This document shows positions 22,955 to 47,228 of a DNA stretch of 47,800 bases, piece by piece; the stretch's first letter is position 1, and the number at the start of each line of letters is the position of its first letter. The position numbers and the translations under genes were made by a program. The notes beneath the pieces are model-generated. The model searched no databases and had not been told where the DNA came from. It saw only the letters and a list, made by a program, of their open reading frames with translations. Source of the stretch: an uncultured Eggerthellaceae bacterium (GTDB taxonomy: Bacteria; Actinomycetota; Coriobacteriia; Coriobacteriales; Eggerthellaceae); contig CAIFEG010000016.1 in NCBI GenBank assembly GCA_903789415.1, positions 1 to 47,800 on the forward strand, given 5' to 3'.

Positions 22955-23515
22955 ATGTCAAAACCAAGCAAATCACCTTGGGTCATCCATTACGATGCCT
23001 CAAGCTGCAATGGATGCGATATTGAAGTTCTTTCAGCGCTTACTCCCGGTTTCGACCTCGAGCGCTTTGGCGTCATTAACACCGGAGATCCGAAACACGC
23101 CGATGTGTTTTTGGTTACCGGTGGCGTGAATACGCAAAACATCTCGGTAATTCAACAAATCTATGATCAGATGCTTGAACCGAAAGTCGTCATTGCTTGT
23201 GGTGCATGTGCATGCAGCGGGGGAGTCTTTCACAGCTGCTATAACTTGATTGGTGGCGTTGACAAGGCAATCCCGGTGGATGTGTATGTTCCTGGATGTG
23301 CCGTACATCCCACCCAGTTAATTGATGGGTTTATAAAGGGGCTCGAAATCCTCGATAAAAAGGCAGCTTTGATGTCTTCAAAAAAGAAGAATAAACAGAT
23401 AAGCCAATCTTCAGGTGTCCAAGCTATACCATCACCTGAAGCAGCTGAACATAAAGAAAACTCTTTGAATCAAGAGACACCCGTTCAAAAAGAAGAAACG
23501 AAAAGGGGTGCCTAA
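22955..23515 (+). CDS. echC: Ech-type hydrogenase small subunit C (NuoB-like)
   Basis: The small subunit of 186 residues carries the proximal [4Fe-4S] cluster that passes electrons to the NiFe site. The ligand regions are DASSCNGCDIEV (Cys18, Cys21), ACGACACSGG (around Cys85) and VPGCAVHPTQL (Cys114). The NuoB-like core ends near residue 140. It is followed by a lysine/serine/glutamate-rich tail of about 45 residues with no domain, which EchC proteins do not need. AAGGAGG lies five to six bases before the ATG. Confidence 0.92.
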   Translation: MSKPSKSPWVIHYDASSCNGCDIEVLSALTPGFDLERFGVINTGDPKHADVFLVTGGVNTQNISVIQQIYDQMLEPKVVIACGACACSGGVFHSCYNLIGGVDKAIPVDVYVPGCAVHPTQLIDGFIKGLEILDKKAALMSSKKKNKQISQSSGVQAIPSPEAAEHKENSLNQETPVQKEETKRGA

Positions 23516-23518
23516 CAC

Positions 23519-24049
23519 ATGACCGTAAAACAAAACTACCATTCAATTGATGTTTCACAGATACTCACAACGGCCCAAAAAGAAAAAGATGAGGGCAGAC
23601 GCTGCATTCAGATTTGTTGCACAACAACTGATGATGGCATTGATGTGATGTATAGCTACCGAGACTTCAATGGCTTTTCGGGTGTGGAAAATTTCGTTGT
23701 TCATGGGTTATCGAAGGGTGACGAAATTCCTTCGATTCAGGAATTTTTCCCGTCACAGTTTCCCTTTGAAAATGAGGCCCACGATCTTTTCGGCATCAAC
23801 GTGACGAATATGAAACTCGATTTTGAAGGCAACTTCTATAAATTGGGTGAGGATGCCCCTATGACTGTTATAAGTACGGAACAGCTCAAACGCAAAGAAC
23901 GAGCGAAGAAGATTGCGGCGGCAATGAAAGCAAAGCAGCAAAAGCAAAACGCGCAACAGTCGCCGGTCGCAAAGAAAGAGACATCTTCTCCAACACAACA
24001 GTCGCCAGGTACAAACAACAAATCATCTTCAGAAAAGAAAGGGGAGTAG
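23519..24049 (+). CDS. echD: Ech-type hydrogenase subunit D (NuoC-like)
   Basis: The 176-residue protein matches the NuoC/HycE N-terminal/EchD type of linker subunit. The diagnostic segment is IQEFFPSQFPFENEAHDLFGINVTN, the family's W/F-P-x-x-x-x-E-R/A-E-x-x-D-L-F-G pattern. It packs against the large subunit and stabilises it, without cofactors of its own. The last 50 or so residues are a lysine-, glutamine- and serine-rich tail with a helical start (KRKERAKKIAAAMKAKQ) and no domain. It sits three bases after echC and three before echE. Confidence 0.88.
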   Translation: MTVKQNYHSIDVSQILTTAQKEKDEGRRCIQICCTTTDDGIDVMYSYRDFNGFSGVENFVVHGLSKGDEIPSIQEFFPSQFPFENEAHDLFGINVTNMKLDFEGNFYKLGEDAPMTVISTEQLKRKERAKKIAAAMKAKQQKQNAQQSPVAKKETSSPTQQSPGTNNKSSSEKKGE

Positions 24050-29840: not shown

Positions 29841-30299
29841 ATGAATACATGCCCGGTATGCAACGGTCCTATTTCGCCCGATGATACGGTATGTCCTTCA
29901 TGCGGATTTAAATTAACGGGTACCACACAAGAATTCAAACCCATCCATTCAGATGAGAATCCAAGCGCAACCGCTGCGATGAAACGTGTTCCGCCCGAGG
30001 CGCATCCTGCTGCCGCCGCACAATTCATCATTGTACAGGGACCGCAAACGGGAACATCAATTCAACTTGAAGATCGCCCAATGACTGTGGGCCGCAATCC
30101 TCAGTGCGATATTTTCTTAAACGATATGACCGTGTCTCGAAAGCATGCCAAGCTTGTTCCTTCGGGAAAAGATTTTCAAATCACCGATACGGGATCATTC
30201 AATGGTATCTGGGTGAACAACCAAAATATTGAAACCGCCCAGCTCCATCCTGGCGACATCATCCAGATCGGCGCGTTTGTCTTAAAGTACCAGCGTTAA
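29841..30299 (+). CDS. Zinc-ribbon and FHA domain protein
   Basis: The 152-residue protein begins with a four-cysteine zinc ribbon (Cys4, 7, 18, 21). After a linker, an FHA domain occupies residues 62-152 with the phosphothreonine-binding residues VGRNPQCD (83-90), SRKHAK (99-104) and GSFNGIWVNN (118-127). FHA domains bind pThr peptides made by Ser/Thr kinases, so it is probably a signalling adaptor. No kinase is in the window. GAGGAGA lies six bases before the ATG. It stands between the carboxypeptidase and iorA with about 70 and 200 bases either side. Confidence 0.92.
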   Translation: MNTCPVCNGPISPDDTVCPSCGFKLTGTTQEFKPIHSDENPSATAAMKRVPPEAHPAAAAQFIIVQGPQTGTSIQLEDRPMTVGRNPQCDIFLNDMTVSRKHAKLVPSGKDFQITDTGSFNGIWVNNQNIETAQLHPGDIIQIGAFVLKYQR

Positions 30300-35301: not shown

Positions 35302-36489
35302 TTAGGAATCCAATTGGTGTTTATTCGTCTCAGGTTTCGGGAATTCAACCTTAGGGAATGTTGCCGCCGCACGAGAAAGCGTGTTTTTGATCTGCTGAAC
35401 AGATTTATCACCCGTGATCTTGAACGCTTCTCCTAATGTGTTGAGCAGCATGGATCGTGTATCTTTATCCAACTTGTTTGTCGTTTCTGCCGCAATCCGC
35501 AAATTCTTTATGTGATCAGCATCAAATTCTGTCCAGGTTCGAACACCTGCAGACTCAAACACACCAAAAAACGTATCAATAAATTTTTTTCGTTCTGCAG
35601 GAGTATGAGCTTGCTCCCATTCATTCATTGCCGAATCGAACGCTATCGCATCGACAGTAAATTCATCAGCTTTGACAAAATCATCGCCCTCGACAAACCA
35701 GTTGAGCGGCGCATGCATTCTGAAAAGAATATCTGTACCATCAACAATGTGATAGTTTTTTCTCTTTTCCATGAGCATGCCGAACACACTGCTTTTCGGA
35801 ACCGTTTTATGAAGTTTCGAGTTATAGCTTTTTTCATAGAACCGTGGGGAGGGGATATTTTCAAATCCTGGGCCATCGTGGTTATAGATTGCCTCAATAC
35901 ATGAATATTCGTCATCTGAGCAGGTCAGCGCGGCATATTCGGCAATGTTTCCACCCTTGCTATGTCCGCCAATACGCAAAAGTCTCCCTGGTAGAGCACT
36001 ATGGACCTGAGAAACATACTCCTGCGCGCGCTTTTGCGATTGCGTGCACTTTTCAAAACTGATATCGAAATTTTCTTTCCAGCCTGCCATGCTGTCATCA
36101 GTTCCACGAAACGCGATATACAGACAGCCATCGTCAAGCATAAAGGTCATTGCGCAGAATTGTTTATCGATCGCATCATCGTTTTCTTCGACAAAATTTC
36201 CCACCTTGCATGACATATAGCGCCGATTCTGGAGAAGCGCATACATAAACCGTTCTCCATGGAAATCACGAAGCCAGCTTGTTCCAAACATTTTTGAATA
36301 GGGAACCCCACAAAGCGCATCAGGTAGGGGAATGAACGTATTTTTGTTATGAAATGTCTCAAAATTCTTTCCGAACTCTAAATGCAAATAAGAAATCGTA
36401 CAAAGAACGAGGCTATCCACTTCATTAAATGGCTCTTCTTCAAAAGAAGCCTGTTTGTATGTTAAATAATCGTTGAGATTCTTTGGCAT
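35302..36489 (-). CDS. DUF2974/Mbeg1-like alpha/beta hydrolase
   Basis: The 395-residue protein has an alpha/beta-hydrolase core with the nucleophile elbow GGHSKGGNIAEY (Ser177), preceded by the strand YIAFRGTDDSMAGWKENF that resembles lipase oxyanion regions. The remaining catalytic residues cannot be placed with certainty. No signal peptide is visible, so it is predicted to be cytoplasmic. The C-terminal 100 residues are charged and helical. Members of this family are called lipase-like, but substrates are unknown. It is divergent from the phosphohexomutase gene across 80 bases. Confidence 0.8.
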   Translation of the reverse strand: MPKNLNDYLTYKQASFEEEPFNEVDSLVLCTISYLHLEFGKNFETFHNKNTFIPLPDALCGVPYSKMFGTSWLRDFHGERFMYALLQNRRYMSCKVGNFVEENDDAIDKQFCAMTFMLDDGCLYIAFRGTDDSMAGWKENFDISFEKCTQSQKRAQEYVSQVHSALPGRLLRIGGHSKGGNIAEYAALTCSDDEYSCIEAIYNHDGPGFENIPSPRFYEKSYNSKLHKTVPKSSVFGMLMEKRKNYHIVDGTDILFRMHAPLNWFVEGDDFVKADEFTVDAIAFDSAMNEWEQAHTPAERKKFIDTFFGVFESAGVRTWTEFDADHIKNLRIAAETTNKLDKDTRSMLLNTLGEAFKITGDKSVQQIKNTLSRAAATFPKVEFPKPETNKHQLDS

Positions 36490-39933: not shown

Positions 39934-42900
39934 CTAGTGCTTTTTATTGTTTTGATTATACGTTGTCGCAATGGTCTCTTTTGATGCAATACGTACTTTT
40001 GGTTTTTTCCGAGGGTTCTTATTTTTCTTATAGCTGTCCTTCGTTTTCTGAGAGAACGACTTCCAACCCTCAGACACTTTATGAAGCGATTTCGAAACGG
40101 CTTCAGAACTTTTATGGGCGATCTCTGAAGCTTGTTTCATCGCATCTTGAGCAACTTCATTTTCAGACAGCGACTTTGTGGTGTTTTCCGAATCCTCATC
40201 AGATGATGGAGATTTTCCCGATAGCTGTTCGTCAGAGTCATCATCTAAACTGTTTGATTCAGAATCCGTTTCGTCAGATTTTTTCGATGACCCATCTGAT
40301 GTATCCGATGCATTTACATCGTCCTGATTTTCAGATGCTTCATCTTGGTTGTCTGAAGGCTCTGCAGATGCCCCATCATGTTTCGAAGAACTATCACTTT
40401 TTGTAGATTTTTCTCCTTTATCCTTTCGAGAAGATTGAGCTTCTTTATTTGAGTGATCTGCAGTTGTCCCCTCTTCATTTTTGTTTAAATTTGAACTATG
40501 TTCATTATTATTCTTTGTTTCTTCTTTTTTACTTATTTCAGGGGACGTGTTCTTCTCATTTACTTTGGGTTTATTCTCACTATTGTTAGAGACGCTGACG
40601 TCACGCTTTGTACGCTTACCCTGACCTGTGTCTTTTGAAGAAATGTTTTCTTTCTTTTCTGAAACCGAATTCTTTTTATCTTTTTCACCCGTTGAGTTGT
40701 GAGAATGCGAGCTCGAATTATGCGATTGTTTCGCACCCGCAGACTTTGTTGATACTGTTTTTTGACTCGAACTCTCGTCCTTTGCATTTGAAGTCTCGCG
40801 CGCAGAAGATGAAGATTTTCTTACAGTCTTTCTCGCTGCACTGCCCTTCTGATCCTTCTTTTGACCTTTGTCACCTTCTTTGGACACCCGTCCTTTATCT
40901 GGTTCAGAAGAAGATAAACCACTTTTGTTTTCAGATGAACCTTTACTGCTTTCCTTTGATGTATCTTTTTGCTTTGTTTTCCCTGTCTCTGCCTTCGCAG
41001 AAGAGGCATCCTTCGAGACTGTTGAGGTATTTTTTGAGATACTCTTATTCTTGGACTTACGGTTGCCCTTATTTGAAGAAGGACTGCTCTTGACCTGTTC
41101 TTCCTTCTCATCCGAAGATGACGCATTCGACACAGATTTCTCCTCTGAGTCTTCCTTTTGGTCTTCGTCTAAGACAGATTTTTGAGCTTTTCTTTCTTCA
41201 GTCTCGTCCGTTTTCTCCTGCTCAGAAGGTTCTTTTTCGTTATTTCCCTCGACCTTCGCTGCTTTGTGCCTCTCCAGAATAGCCTTGATCTCATCTGCTC
41301 CAACAGGTGAAGGGATTTCACTTGATTGTTTACCAGCATTAATAACACGCTGTACATCGGCCGGACTCATAACCGTTGTTTTTTCCGCACTAAGGTCTTC
41401 TTCATCTTCTTTGTTGTTGACCGCTAATTCAGGTTCATCGGGCAAATCTTCCCCGTCAAATAATTCAGAAATCAAATCTGACAACGATTTATTGTTCTTT
41501 GTATTGTTCTTTGCGGATAAATCTTCCTTAGAATCCTTAGTATCGGCCTTTTTATCAGAAGTTTTCTGATTCTTAGAAGGCTTTGATTTAGACGTCTTCT
41601 TAGACTGCAACGCTTGATTATTCTTTGTACGCCAGCTTACTGCGGACAGTTGTTCTACTTCTCGCATTACGGACGACATTGATTCAAGGTCTGAATCTCC
41701 CGTAGACGCATTTGTCGTACGAATAGGTCTCATCACGCGCGTAGCGTCAGGATTGAGGTCCATTGATTTAAGGTCATACTTAGGCGCATTGGGAATCGGC
41801 GTAAGCTTAACCGGGTTAATAACCTGCGTATCTTCCCTAACGGGGATCTGTTCTCCCTCAGGCTCATCAATCAGTGGGTCGGGCGGAACAATTTTGCGTT
41901 CAATTGGCTTCATGACATGCGTGAGGCTTGCATCAAGCGACGGACTGTTATCCGGAGCCTTAATGACACGTGGCTCTGGCGCTTTACCTGCGAGTTTTTC
42001 AATAAGATTTCGGGTATCTAATTCCTTTTCACGCTGTTTATTCTTCTTTTCCTCTTCTTTTCGTTGGCGCTTGGTATTACGCTGCGCTTCCTTTTTTTCA
42101 CGCTTCTTCAAACGATCGTTTTCCCTTGAAGACAAAGCAGCTGCAGAACGAGAAGTAGGCCGAGCTAGAGGTTGTGCATCATCGAGAGCATCACGTTTTT
42201 GGGTCGTCCAGCAAAGAGTACCAATTGAATGTTCCGGGAGAACAAAAGAACACGTCGATTGACCCTCATGAATCCGAAGTTTTTGAGCGGAATCACTGGT
42301 ATTTAAAAGGACTAAAACCTGTTCGCCATCGGGATTCATAGCACCGAGTGCTTCAACCTTATCGTTTGATCGACTCGTAAGCATAATACGGGCACCGGGT
42401 TTAATAAAATGACTGAAATGCCCAATATAGGAAAACGCGGGTTTGACCTCGAGATGATGATCTGCACGATTGTACATAAGCGGAGCATAACAGTAATTTG
42501 AGGCATGGTTCGGTCCGCCCGTTTCGTCGAGCAATATGTTCCAGTCTATATACCCATGTGCTCCATTAGCAAAATCACCAATAATATCATGAGCGTAGTG
42601 TTCGGCATATTCTAAATCCGAATTGGCATTGCGTGGAAGCGCTTCGCAACCTTCAGTCATATAGAAAAGTTTATTCGGAAACTCAGAAGTTGCCTCCCGA
42701 AGTGCTTCGAAATGATCTCCCGAATACCAATGGAATGCCACACCATCAATCGCAGTGGAGGCACCATCGGTAGAGAGCTCTGTTTCAACGCGTTCCAAAA
42801 GTTGCTCTTTATTATGGTCCCAAACGAAAATCTTAACGTCAGTAAGGCCCGTGGTTACCAGGGCGGGCTTTAAATAATTGATGGCAAAATTCGACTCTTC

Positions 42901-43608
42901 CTCAGGGCTCATTTCACAAGATTCCCAAGGCTGACGTGCATTCGGCTCATTTTGGACCGTTAACGCCGAAATATGAATACCACGCTTTCTGTAAGCAAGA
43001 ATGTAGCGCACAATGACATCAGCCCAACGCGTGTAATATTCCTTTTTAAGATGACCGCCCAGACGAACCATATGATTTGTTTTCATAAAACTTGGTGGGC
43101 TCCAAGGAGACGAAATGATTTTAATATCGTCTGATTGGCCAAGAGCATCTTTTATAAGCGGGATAAGATACTGGGTATCTTTGCCAAGAGAAAATGTTTC
43201 GAGCGCCTCATCATCTTCATCAGTAACGTATGACCAGATAGAACGCGAAAAATCGTTGCTTTGGATAGGTGCACGGCACAGACGATAATTGTGATCTTTT
43301 TCACTAAAGCACATCTTAAGAAAGCGTTCTTGAGAGGCAGGGTTCATCTGAGAATACACATATCCCGCTGCATCAGTGAATGCCGCACCAAATCCATCGA
43401 CATGTTGCTTCAAGTGATCAGGGTAAACCTTGATAAGCCCCATTTCCGCATTTCGATCCACGCGAAAATGAAGATTATGGTGTGATCGATTCATTTTTTT
43501 ATCAGTAACGGTTAATTTTGCACGAAAGGCAATCCCGTTTTTTGTATTCGGTATGTTAGAAGATCCTGAATTTGTCGTTTGCTTCTTAGAAGAACGTTTC
43601 TTCGCCAT
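39934..43608 (-). CDS. GH30-like glycoside hydrolase fused to a long disordered region
   Basis: This 1224-residue protein begins with a GH30-type (beta/alpha)8 hydrolase at about residues 45-470. FGAAFTDAAGYV, SSPWSPPSFMKTN, the acid/base glutamate in TVQNEPNARQPWE (Glu221) and the nucleophile in YMTEGCEAL (Glu319) are all kept. The small beta domain ends near 465 (EHSIGTLCW). The rest is low complexity: a highly charged helix (495-535, Lys/Arg/Glu), a linker (540-760) with four T-x-V-[MI]-x-P motifs, a Ser/Lys/Glu/Asp-rich stretch of about 370 residues, and a basic amphipathic C terminus (1145-1224). No signal peptide or membrane helix is visible, so how the enzyme reaches a glycan is unclear. 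It is the last gene after nrdR and dut. Confidence 0.85.
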   Translation of the reverse strand: MAKKRSSKKQTTNSGSSNIPNTKNGIAFRAKLTVTDKKMNRSHHNLHFRVDRNAEMGLIKVYPDHLKQHVDGFGAAFTDAAGYVYSQMNPASQERFLKMCFSEKDHNYRLCRAPIQSNDFSRSIWSYVTDEDDEALETFSLGKDTQYLIPLIKDALGQSDDIKIISSPWSPPSFMKTNHMVRLGGHLKKEYYTRWADVIVRYILAYRKRGIHISALTVQNEPNARQPWESCEMSPEEESNFAINYLKPALVTTGLTDVKIFVWDHNKEQLLERVETELSTDGASTAIDGVAFHWYSGDHFEALREATSEFPNKLFYMTEGCEALPRNANSDLEYAEHYAHDIIGDFANGAHGYIDWNILLDETGGPNHASNYCYAPLMYNRADHHLEVKPAFSYIGHFSHFIKPGARIMLTSRSNDKVEALGAMNPDGEQVLVLLNTSDSAQKLRIHEGQSTCSFVLPEHSIGTLCWTTQKRDALDDAQPLARPTSRSAAALSSRENDRLKKREKKEAQRNTKRQRKEEEKKNKQREKELDTRNLIEKLAGKAPEPRVIKAPDNSPSLDASLTHVMKPIERKIVPPDPLIDEPEGEQIPVREDTQVINPVKLTPIPNAPKYDLKSMDLNPDATRVMRPIRTTNASTGDSDLESMSSVMREVEQLSAVSWRTKNNQALQSKKTSKSKPSKNQKTSDKKADTKDSKEDLSAKNNTKNNKSLSDLISELFDGEDLPDEPELAVNNKEDEEDLSAEKTTVMSPADVQRVINAGKQSSEIPSPVGADEIKAILERHKAAKVEGNNEKEPSEQEKTDETEERKAQKSVLDEDQKEDSEEKSVSNASSSDEKEEQVKSSPSSNKGNRKSKNKSISKNTSTVSKDASSAKAETGKTKQKDTSKESSKGSSENKSGLSSSEPDKGRVSKEGDKGQKKDQKGSAARKTVRKSSSSARETSNAKDESSSQKTVSTKSAGAKQSHNSSSHSHNSTGEKDKKNSVSEKKENISSKDTGQGKRTKRDVSVSNNSENKPKVNEKNTSPEISKKEETKNNNEHSSNLNKNEEGTTADHSNKEAQSSRKDKGEKSTKSDSSSKHDGASAEPSDNQDEASENQDDVNASDTSDGSSKKSDETDSESNSLDDDSDEQLSGKSPSSDEDSENTTKSLSENEVAQDAMKQASEIAHKSSEAVSKSLHKVSEGWKSFSQKTKDSYKKNKNPRKKPKVRIASKETIATTYNQNNKKH

Positions 43609-43685: not shown

Positions 43686-44120
43686 CTATTTAACGCCGCT
43701 GCTTCCGAAGCCGCCGCTTCCACGATCCGAATCGCTCAATTCGCTCACTTCAACGGGGAAAATCTGTTCAACGCGCATAATAACAAGTTGTGCAATTCGA
43801 TCTCCAACATGAATTTCTACAGAATTCGAAGGATCGAGATTAATTGCAGCTACCTTAAGTTCACCCCGATAATTGCTATCGACGAGCCCCGGAGTATTGG
43901 CAAGTGATAATCCTTTATTGAGTGCATTTCCGCTTCGTGGCAATACAAATCCCGCATATCCGTCAGGAAGTTCCATAGAAAGTCCTGTTGAAACAAGCTT
44001 CCTTTCAAAAGGCTTAAGGGTAGTTTCTTCAATCGAACGCAAATCTACTCCTGCATCGCCTTCATACGCATTTTGAGGTACCTGTGCATTTTCGTTAAGT
44101 TTCTTAAAATGTATATTCAA
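43686..44120 (-). CDS. dut: Deoxyuridine 5'-triphosphate nucleotidohydrolase
   Basis: dUTPase hydrolyses dUTP to dUMP, keeping uracil out of DNA. The 144-residue trimer-type protein has all five motifs: GDAGVDLRS (21-29), LPRSGNALNKG, GLVDSNYRGEL, RIAQLVI, and the Gly-rich C-terminal arm RGSGGFGSSG. The start is TTG 44120; AAGGAG, overlapping the nrdR stop codon, lies eight bases before it. It is coupled to nrdR and lies downstream of the SOS gene, a sensible grouping for DNA-damage conditions, though no SOS box lies directly in front of it. Confidence 0.96.
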   Translation of the reverse strand: MNIHFKKLNENAQVPQNAYEGDAGVDLRSIEETTLKPFERKLVSTGLSMELPDGYAGFVLPRSGNALNKGLSLANTPGLVDSNYRGELKVAAINLDPSNSVEIHVGDRIAQLVIMRVEQIFPVEVSELSDSDRGSGGFGSSGVK

Positions 44121-45904: not shown

Positions 45905-47228
45905 TTATTTACGTTTGGACTTTGCCTCTTTATACGGCGTAAAGTTTACGACAAAATCATTGGGGATGCGCAGCTCTAAAATCGTCCCTTCTGAATCATA
46001 CGTTTCATAAAGCACTTGGCAGCGATCATGCGCAAGTGAAACGAGATCGCCGCGATTGAAAGGGATACAAACACGCATGTATGTATCTTTCGAAGCTGCA
46101 ACCGCTTCAATGCGTTGAAGAAGGCGGTCAATGCCTTCACCTGTTTTTGCCGAAGCAAGAATCGATCCAGGCATTTGACGCTCAATAGCACGCTTCTGAT
46201 TTTCAGTTAAAAGATCGCATTTGTTAAAGACTTCAATTCGATCAATCTTTTCAGCACCGATTTGTTGAATGGTCGAATTAACTGTAGCAATTTGCTCTGC
46301 CCGGGATGGAGACGAGGCATCAATAACATGAAGGATAATATCTGCCTTATTGATCTCTTCAAGCGTACTCTTAAACGCATCAATAAGCTTCGTGGGAAGT
46401 TTTTGTATAAACCCTACCGTATCGGTTAGGGTTACCTCTCTTCCCCCCCGGCAGGCGCAATTTCCTCGTGGTCGCATCTACGGTCGCAAAAAGCTTGTCA
46501 TACTGCAAAACATGGGAATCCGTGAGCCGGTTCATCAAACTTGATTTTCCCGCGTTGGTATATCCTGCAAGAGCAATGCGGATCATTCCGCTTCTCATTC
46601 TGCTTGAACGCTGAAGGTTTCTATTTTGTTGTAGGTGTTTAAGATCCTTTTTGATCGACGTAATGCGCTTTCTTACCAGCCTACGGTCAACCTCAAGCTG
46701 ACTCTCACCTTCACCAAAACGCGATCCTACTCCTCCACCCATTCGGTTACCTGCAGAGGCAAGGTGTGCCCACATGCCACGAAGCCGAGGATACAGATAC
46801 TCATTTTGGGCGAGCCGAACCTGCATGCGCCCCTCTTTGCTGGTTGCATGCATGGCGAAAATATCTAAAATGAGCGCGGTTCTATCTATGACTTTGATGT
46901 CTCTACCAAAAATATGCTCAAGATTAGACTGCTGGGTAGGGGAAAGCTCATCATCAAAAATGACCACATCGACATTAAGCTCTTTACACATGCGCTCAAT
47001 CTCATGTGCTTTGCCACTCCCAATGTACGTTGCAGCTACGGGAGCAGAAAGTCGTTGCGTAGTCTGCCCCACCACTACGGCGCCATCGGTATCTACCAAA
47101 CGATGAAGCTCTGCCATCGTTTCCGACAGTTTCCAATGATCTGCATCGAGTTCAACACCTACCAAAAAAGCTCGTTCGGGCTCTTCGGCAGTAGACTGTG
47201 GAATAAAACGGTTCTTATTAGTCGACAA
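45905..47228 (-). pseudogene. hflX: GTPase HflX, interrupted by a frameshift in a G7 run
   Basis: HflX is a ribosome-associated GTPase that rescues or splits stalled 70S ribosomes. The first frame (from TTG 47228) gives the N-terminal domain, the Gly-rich AGNRMGGGVGSRFGEGESQLE, G1 AGYTNAGKSSL and switch I ATVDATTRKLRLPGG, then runs off into an unrelated tail. The other frame resumes at GGREVTLTDTVGFIQKLP (G3) and continues through FNKCDLL (G4) and ASAKTGEG (G5) to the stop at 45905. Removing one G from the G7 run (plus-strand C7 at 46443-46449) restores the reading L-P-G-G-R-E-V. Both halves are otherwise well conserved. AAGGA lies three bases before the TTG. The order lexA-hflX-dapF is typical of Actinomycetota. 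Confidence 0.9.

Follow-up and report, generated by a model that had tools for sequence, protein, structure and literature searches.

We analysed a window of 47,800 nucleotides from an uncultured Eggerthellaceae bacterium and found in it a gene encoding a GH30 glycoside hydrolase that continues, beyond its catalytic domain, into a tail of 754 residues. The gene (39934..43608, minus strand; 1,224 codons in the open reading frame list, ATG start) is real, and its tail is unique to the host genome among the genomes searched. Our explanation, which as a whole we hold only tentatively and at somewhat short of an even chance, is that of a cytosolic beta-glucosidase carrying a tail that serves as a multi-site substrate of the kinase PknB and as a docking scaffold for FHA proteins. 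The enzyme part of this explanation is well supported, though catalysis itself is inferred, and from a repeated threonine motif and from parallels with known systems we infer the mechanism of the tail, namely phosphorylation, FHA binding and membrane contact.

Fold and active site of the GH30 domain

Residues 26-470 (42199..43533, minus strand) form the barrel and beta-sandwich of a SrfJ/GBA-like GH30 enzyme, as seen by Pfam, a PDB sequence search, AlphaFold and Foldseek. Pfam places the GH30 TIM barrel at residues 70-402 (E 3.1e-62) and the GH30C beta-sandwich at residues 407-465 (E 4.4e-12), both over the cut-off. An AlphaFold model built on an alignment of 42 sequences has a mean pLDDT of 89.8, with values above 90 across most of residues 30-470 and a drop below 50 from residue 473. 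The best solved structure in the PDB sequence search is SrfJ, the Salmonella GH30 glucosylceramidase (2wnw, E 5.8e-119), which also tops the Foldseek fold comparison with TM 0.97 on the target and rmsd 1.4; next come human acid beta-glucosidase (GBA, 1ogs; TM 0.84) and the 1,6-glucanase BT3312 (5ngk; TM 0.79). The protein thus has both the domain pair and the two catalytic glutamates expected of the family. The general acid/base is E221 in QNEP (TVQNEP; 42946..42948, minus strand) and the nucleophile is E319 in TEGC (MTEGC; 42652..42654, minus strand). Both are invariant in the 42-sequence alignment, and both equivalents in SrfJ, which acts on 4-methylumbelliferyl-beta-glucoside, are essential (PMC10179164). 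The catalytic pair that the preliminary description had reported as intact is therefore indeed so.

Since SrfJ is the closest structure and acts on that substrate, a beta-glucosidase or glucosylceramidase-type activity is expected, and the assignment to the SrfJ/GBA-like part of GH30 as a retaining, probably cytosolic, beta-glucosidase is well supported by sequence and predicted structure. SrfJ shares the catalytic pair and the lack of an N-terminal signal peptide; unlike the present protein it has no long tail and is a type III effector, a role that nothing indicates here. GBA shares the fold and the active-site layout, but it follows a lysosomal or secreted route, is only 28-29% identical and carries no tail. 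An endo-1,6-beta-glucanase of the BT3312 type has the same fold, but the protein reaches 240 bits against the 700 bits of the NCBIfam equivalog cut-off, which makes that name unsuitable. A glycogen-associated function, one of the options raised earlier, found no support. In a tree, the GH30 domain sits on a long branch within the Coriobacteriia clade (support 99).

Absence of a signal peptide

The protein begins with a polar, basic extension of 25 residues (43534..43608, minus strand), with low pLDDT at residues 1-4 and 9-18; the GH30 proteins of its relatives begin downstream of it. No signal peptide or membrane helix was found anywhere in the 1224 residues, in agreement with the preliminary description, the most hydrophobic 19-residue segment (hydropathy 0.82) lying inside the barrel. 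An upstream start cannot supply a signal peptide either, since the frame is closed only 4 codons before the ATG. To place this absence in context we considered 90 complete relatives; some belong to the same family and order, the others to Bacillota, for the most part Lachnospiraceae. Not one of the 90 has a hydrophobic 12-residue stretch in frame before the GH30 domain, so that relatives with a signal peptide from an upstream start, which were to count against the earlier reading, did not turn up; SrfJ (2wnw) lacks a signal peptide as well. The protein thus resembles its subgroup in this respect and differs from it in length, with a 754-residue tail on what is otherwise a protein of about 450 residues.

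The missing signal peptide is, judged from these sequences, ordinary: its absence is the rule in a SrfJ-like GH30 subgroup that is predicted to be cytosolic. The unusual export route suggested earlier is therefore not needed, and the premise of GH30 enzymes being, as a rule, secreted or lysosomal requires correction: Coriobacteriia and Lachnospiraceae possess a broad cytosolic SrfJ-like subgroup, with phosphorylases and a sugar importer adjacent in at least one locus. In that Lachnospiraceae locus (L048), Pfam identifies beside the GH30 gene a GH94 protein, a GH149-like protein, and the binding protein and permeases of an ABC importer, neighbours that fit a cytosolic processing of imported oligosaccharides. 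The gene sizes at two further loci (L045 and L093) match, which suggests that they share the arrangement, and the recurrent cluster is a possible locus for the utilisation of beta-glucan oligosaccharides.

Composition of the tail and evidence of coding

The tail (residues 471-1224) makes up 62% of the protein and is rich in Ser (16%), Lys (15%), Glu (10.5%), Asp (8%) and Asn (7%). AlphaFold assigns a pLDDT below 50 to 550 of its 754 residues, a prediction from a single sequence and hence weak. The long, charged and disordered tail with a basic amphipathic end that had been described earlier is borne out by composition and model, except that the disorder is not uniform. The same single-sequence model predicts a long charged helix at residues 489-540 (41989..42144, minus strand; pLDDT about 83-93) and an amphipathic helix at residues 1149-1195 (40024..40164, minus strand; hydrophobic moment 0.5). 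Between them, composition and model mark residues 790-1148 (40165..41241, minus strand) as a disordered stretch rich in Lys, Ser, Glu, Asp and Asn, and the protein closes with a basic end, residues 1196-1224 (39937..40023, minus strand).

The tail is proper coding sequence and not a run-on. Its synonymous codon usage lies as close to that of the host genes as does that of the GH30 part (JSD 0.019 and 0.020, respectively), whereas the five other readings of the same DNA are worse (JSD 0.056-0.112) and contain 16-95 stops each. An origin by tandem-repeat expansion at the DNA level was considered and rejected, the only arrays being trivial ones of at most 28 bp. The earlier concern that the tail might be an unconserved run-on thus splits in two: unconserved it is, in the genomes searched, but it is coding and carries repeated motifs.

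Distribution of the tail

None of the 90 complete relatives has more than 12 residues after the GH30 domain (median 1), and no homologue of the tail, whether fused to GH30 or separate, was found in 138 genomes of the family or 398 of the class. The layout, as first supposed, is unusual: no other genome searched has it. Two long GH30 frames elsewhere carry no such tail: the GH30 domain ends normally in both, with extra frame upstream in one (1342, genome G117) and a C-terminal extension of 11 residues in the other (1559, genome G201). The literature was searched as well, for glycosidases with disordered tails and FHA domains, with no result.

Within the host, we examined a sample of 458 kb, about a quarter of the genome (366 genes, 134,041 positions). 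Many other proteins in this sample carry charged or polar tails of 50-175 residues, the longest being 175 residues against more than 500 in the GH30 protein, and charged tails may accordingly be a trait of the host genome. In the window itself, two hydrogenase/complex I-like subunits of the 20 kDa and 30 kDa type (22955-24049, plus strand) have Lys/Ser/Gln-rich C-terminal tails of about 55-65 residues past the Pfam domain.

A threonine motif shared with PknB

Four copies of T-x-V-[MI]-x-P lie between residues 563 and 749 of the tail, all on the minus strand: T563 (THVMKP, 41905..41922), T594 (TQVINP, 41812..41829), T623 (TRVMRP, 41725..41742), which is the best match to the kinase juxtamembrane sites, and T744 (TTVMSP, 41362..41379). 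Shuffled tails hold 0.0034 copies on average and never more than one in 20,000 shuffles. In all 30 genomes checked, the PASTA kinase PknB carries a related pattern, T-x-[VI]-[MI], in its juxtamembrane segment, with two or more copies in 18 of them; examples from genome G001 are DDATHVMGG and VEGTSVMPP. A motif finder that was blind to the tail, run on the PknB juxtamembrane segments, recovered D-x-T-x-V-M-P. Within the 458 kb sample, T-x-V-M-x-P is confined to the GH30 tail, with three copies, and to PknB. The genome-wide DNA pattern of the motif is uninformative, with 13 matches against 12 in the control, and only in-frame matches were interpreted.

To quantify the resemblance, we scanned the 134,041 positions of the sample with two position-specific scoring matrices. 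With the first, built from 47 juxtamembrane sites in the kinases of other genomes, T623 ranks 1, above the host's own PknB site, and the remaining tail sites rank 4, 17 and 23. Since those 47 sites had been picked with the motif in mind, a matrix from the blind motif is the fairer test. Here T744 ranks 12 and T623 ranks 17, so that half of the four tail sites are among the first 20 (p 0.005), while the other two fall to ranks 392 and 967, which weakens the case for these two and lowered our confidence in the kinase reading. The tail sites thus resemble conserved PASTA-kinase sites, less closely under the blind matrix, and we regard the evidence from this resemblance as moderate, not overwhelming.

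FHA domains bind phosphothreonine with a preference at the +3 position, and the +3 residue is Met or Ile at all four tail sites. In the host, the genes for PknB, a PstP-type phosphatase, FhaA and FhaB form one cluster, to which the GH30 gene is not adjacent. The window adds a zinc-ribbon and FHA protein (29841..30299, plus strand), not operon-linked to the GH30 gene, that could be a reader of phosphorylated motifs; it has 152 residues, TTQEF in its linker and a GarA-like layout. In mycobacteria, the juxtamembrane segment of PknB is itself phosphorylated, and a recruitment of partners has been suggested (PMC6428115). PknB also phosphorylates CwlM, a cytosolic amidase homologue, near its C-terminus, upon which FhaA is bound (PMC6180346).

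Outside the 458 kb sample, T-x-V-M-x-P was seen again in two further proteins. A TPR protein, predicted to have a single membrane helix, bears a conserved QGT-x-V-M-x-P-[IV] in its cytosolic linker, with orthologues in three genera (loci L114 in G000, L242 in G001 and L245 in G017), and is likely, by its sequence, to be a further client of the PknB pathway. In an L,D-transpeptidase-like protein (L231 in G017), the cytosolic N-terminus is disordered and contains DATRRMAP and GETRVMSP, which resemble the kinase juxtamembrane motif. In both proteins, annotated by reading their sequences, the motif segments are predicted to be cytosolic parts of membrane or cell-wall proteins.

A possible link to the kinase pathway and its rivals

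If our reading of a PknB substrate and FHA scaffold holds, the GH30 enzyme would act, probably on imported or lipid-linked beta-glucosides, while the 754-residue tail, gained in the host species, would connect it to the circuit of the PASTA Ser/Thr kinase. PknB would phosphorylate some or all of T563, T594, T623 and T744; FhaA, FhaB or the zinc-ribbon FHA protein could then bind the resulting phosphothreonines, and the amphipathic, basic C-terminus might direct the protein towards the membrane or towards partners. Cell-wall signals would in this way localise or regulate the enzyme, much as PknB and FhaA handle CwlM in Mycobacterium tuberculosis, likewise a cytosolic, wall-hydrolase-like protein with a C-terminal phosphothreonine. 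CwlM differs in its amidase fold, in having two adjacent sites as opposed to four spread over a long disordered tail, and in that its role has been experimentally demonstrated. Of the suggestions made earlier, that of a scaffold survives, with the motif evidence sharpening it towards the PASTA-kinase and FHA system. One could also speculate, with still less confidence than for the mechanism itself, that the glycosidase is a multivalent FHA-binding platform through which the turnover of beta-glucosides or glycolipids is coupled to the cell-wall pathway of the PASTA kinase, and that T-x-V-M-x-P is a general, hitherto undescribed motif of the PknB pathway in Eggerthellaceae. Were the tail such a kinase and FHA platform, Ser/Thr phosphorylation that senses the cell wall would connect directly to a glucosidase in a gut-type actinobacterial family, and clients of the PknB pathway could be predicted throughout Eggerthellaceae from the motif they share.

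Several points speak against the kinase reading: the tail has no orthologue in the genomes searched, the motif was first noticed in the tail itself, making its choice post hoc, two of its four sites score poorly with the blind matrix, the background sample covered about a quarter of the genome, and the gene lies apart from the kinase cluster. The main rival is that a functional cytosolic GH30 enzyme has acquired a neutral, lineage-specific low-complexity tail in a host that tolerates charged tails, the motifs being coincidental. That no relative carries the tail, in a genus represented by a single genome, agrees with this, and the moderate charged or polar tails on many other host proteins keep such neutral growth a serious contender. 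Four motif copies against 0.0034 expected, a length far beyond the next longest tail in the sample and a predicted helix at the very end of the protein are harder to reconcile with it, and we consider it unlikely on balance. A kinase-independent role in a condensate or multi-enzyme complex, with the layout of the RNase E degradosome scaffold, strikes us as improbable. The tail does have mixed-charge blocks, helical elements and an amphipathic, potentially membrane-binding C-terminus, and RNase E, too, joins an enzyme domain to a long disordered region that holds short linear motifs and an amphipathic helix. The likeness is one of layout only, however: the enzymes are unrelated, no degradosome or RNA-binding elements were recognised in the GH30 tail, the kinase-like motif is the only partner-binding motif recognised, and no relative shares the arrangement.

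Less probable again is a non-classical export to the cell surface, with the charged tail binding wall polymers. Beyond that charge, all that favours it is the type III export of the SrfJ homologue in another phylum (PMC5723671), and it is opposed by the uniform lack of signal peptides among the 90 relatives and by the Lachnospiraceae cluster, which pairs GH30 with an importer and phosphorylases. The slightest chance of all we give to an assembly or frameshift artefact that fused the GH30 gene to an unrelated frame. The assembly does consist of 49 contigs, and another gene of the window, hflX, seems to be frameshifted, but the GH30 frame is single and unbroken, both its parts match host codon usage, and searches of the 138 family and 398 class genomes for the tail as a separate gene found no homologue.

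Genomic setting

The gene is flanked by dut, its upstream neighbour at a distance of 77 bp on the same strand (43686..44120, minus strand), and by birA. In three genomes of the same family (G001, G018 and G023), nrdR-dut adjoins birA-pgm without GH30 in between, and the position of the GH30 gene is therefore lineage-specific among the genomes compared; no tail-like gene was seen downstream of dut in the relatives. Promoter and terminator scans of the locus gave results near shuffle levels. Elsewhere in the window, hflX (45905-47228, minus strand) seems to be divided between two frames that overlap (46380-47228 and 45905-46477), which suggests a frameshift or a sequence error, and an ordinary Mbeg1-like alpha/beta hydrolase is encoded at 35302-36489 (minus strand).
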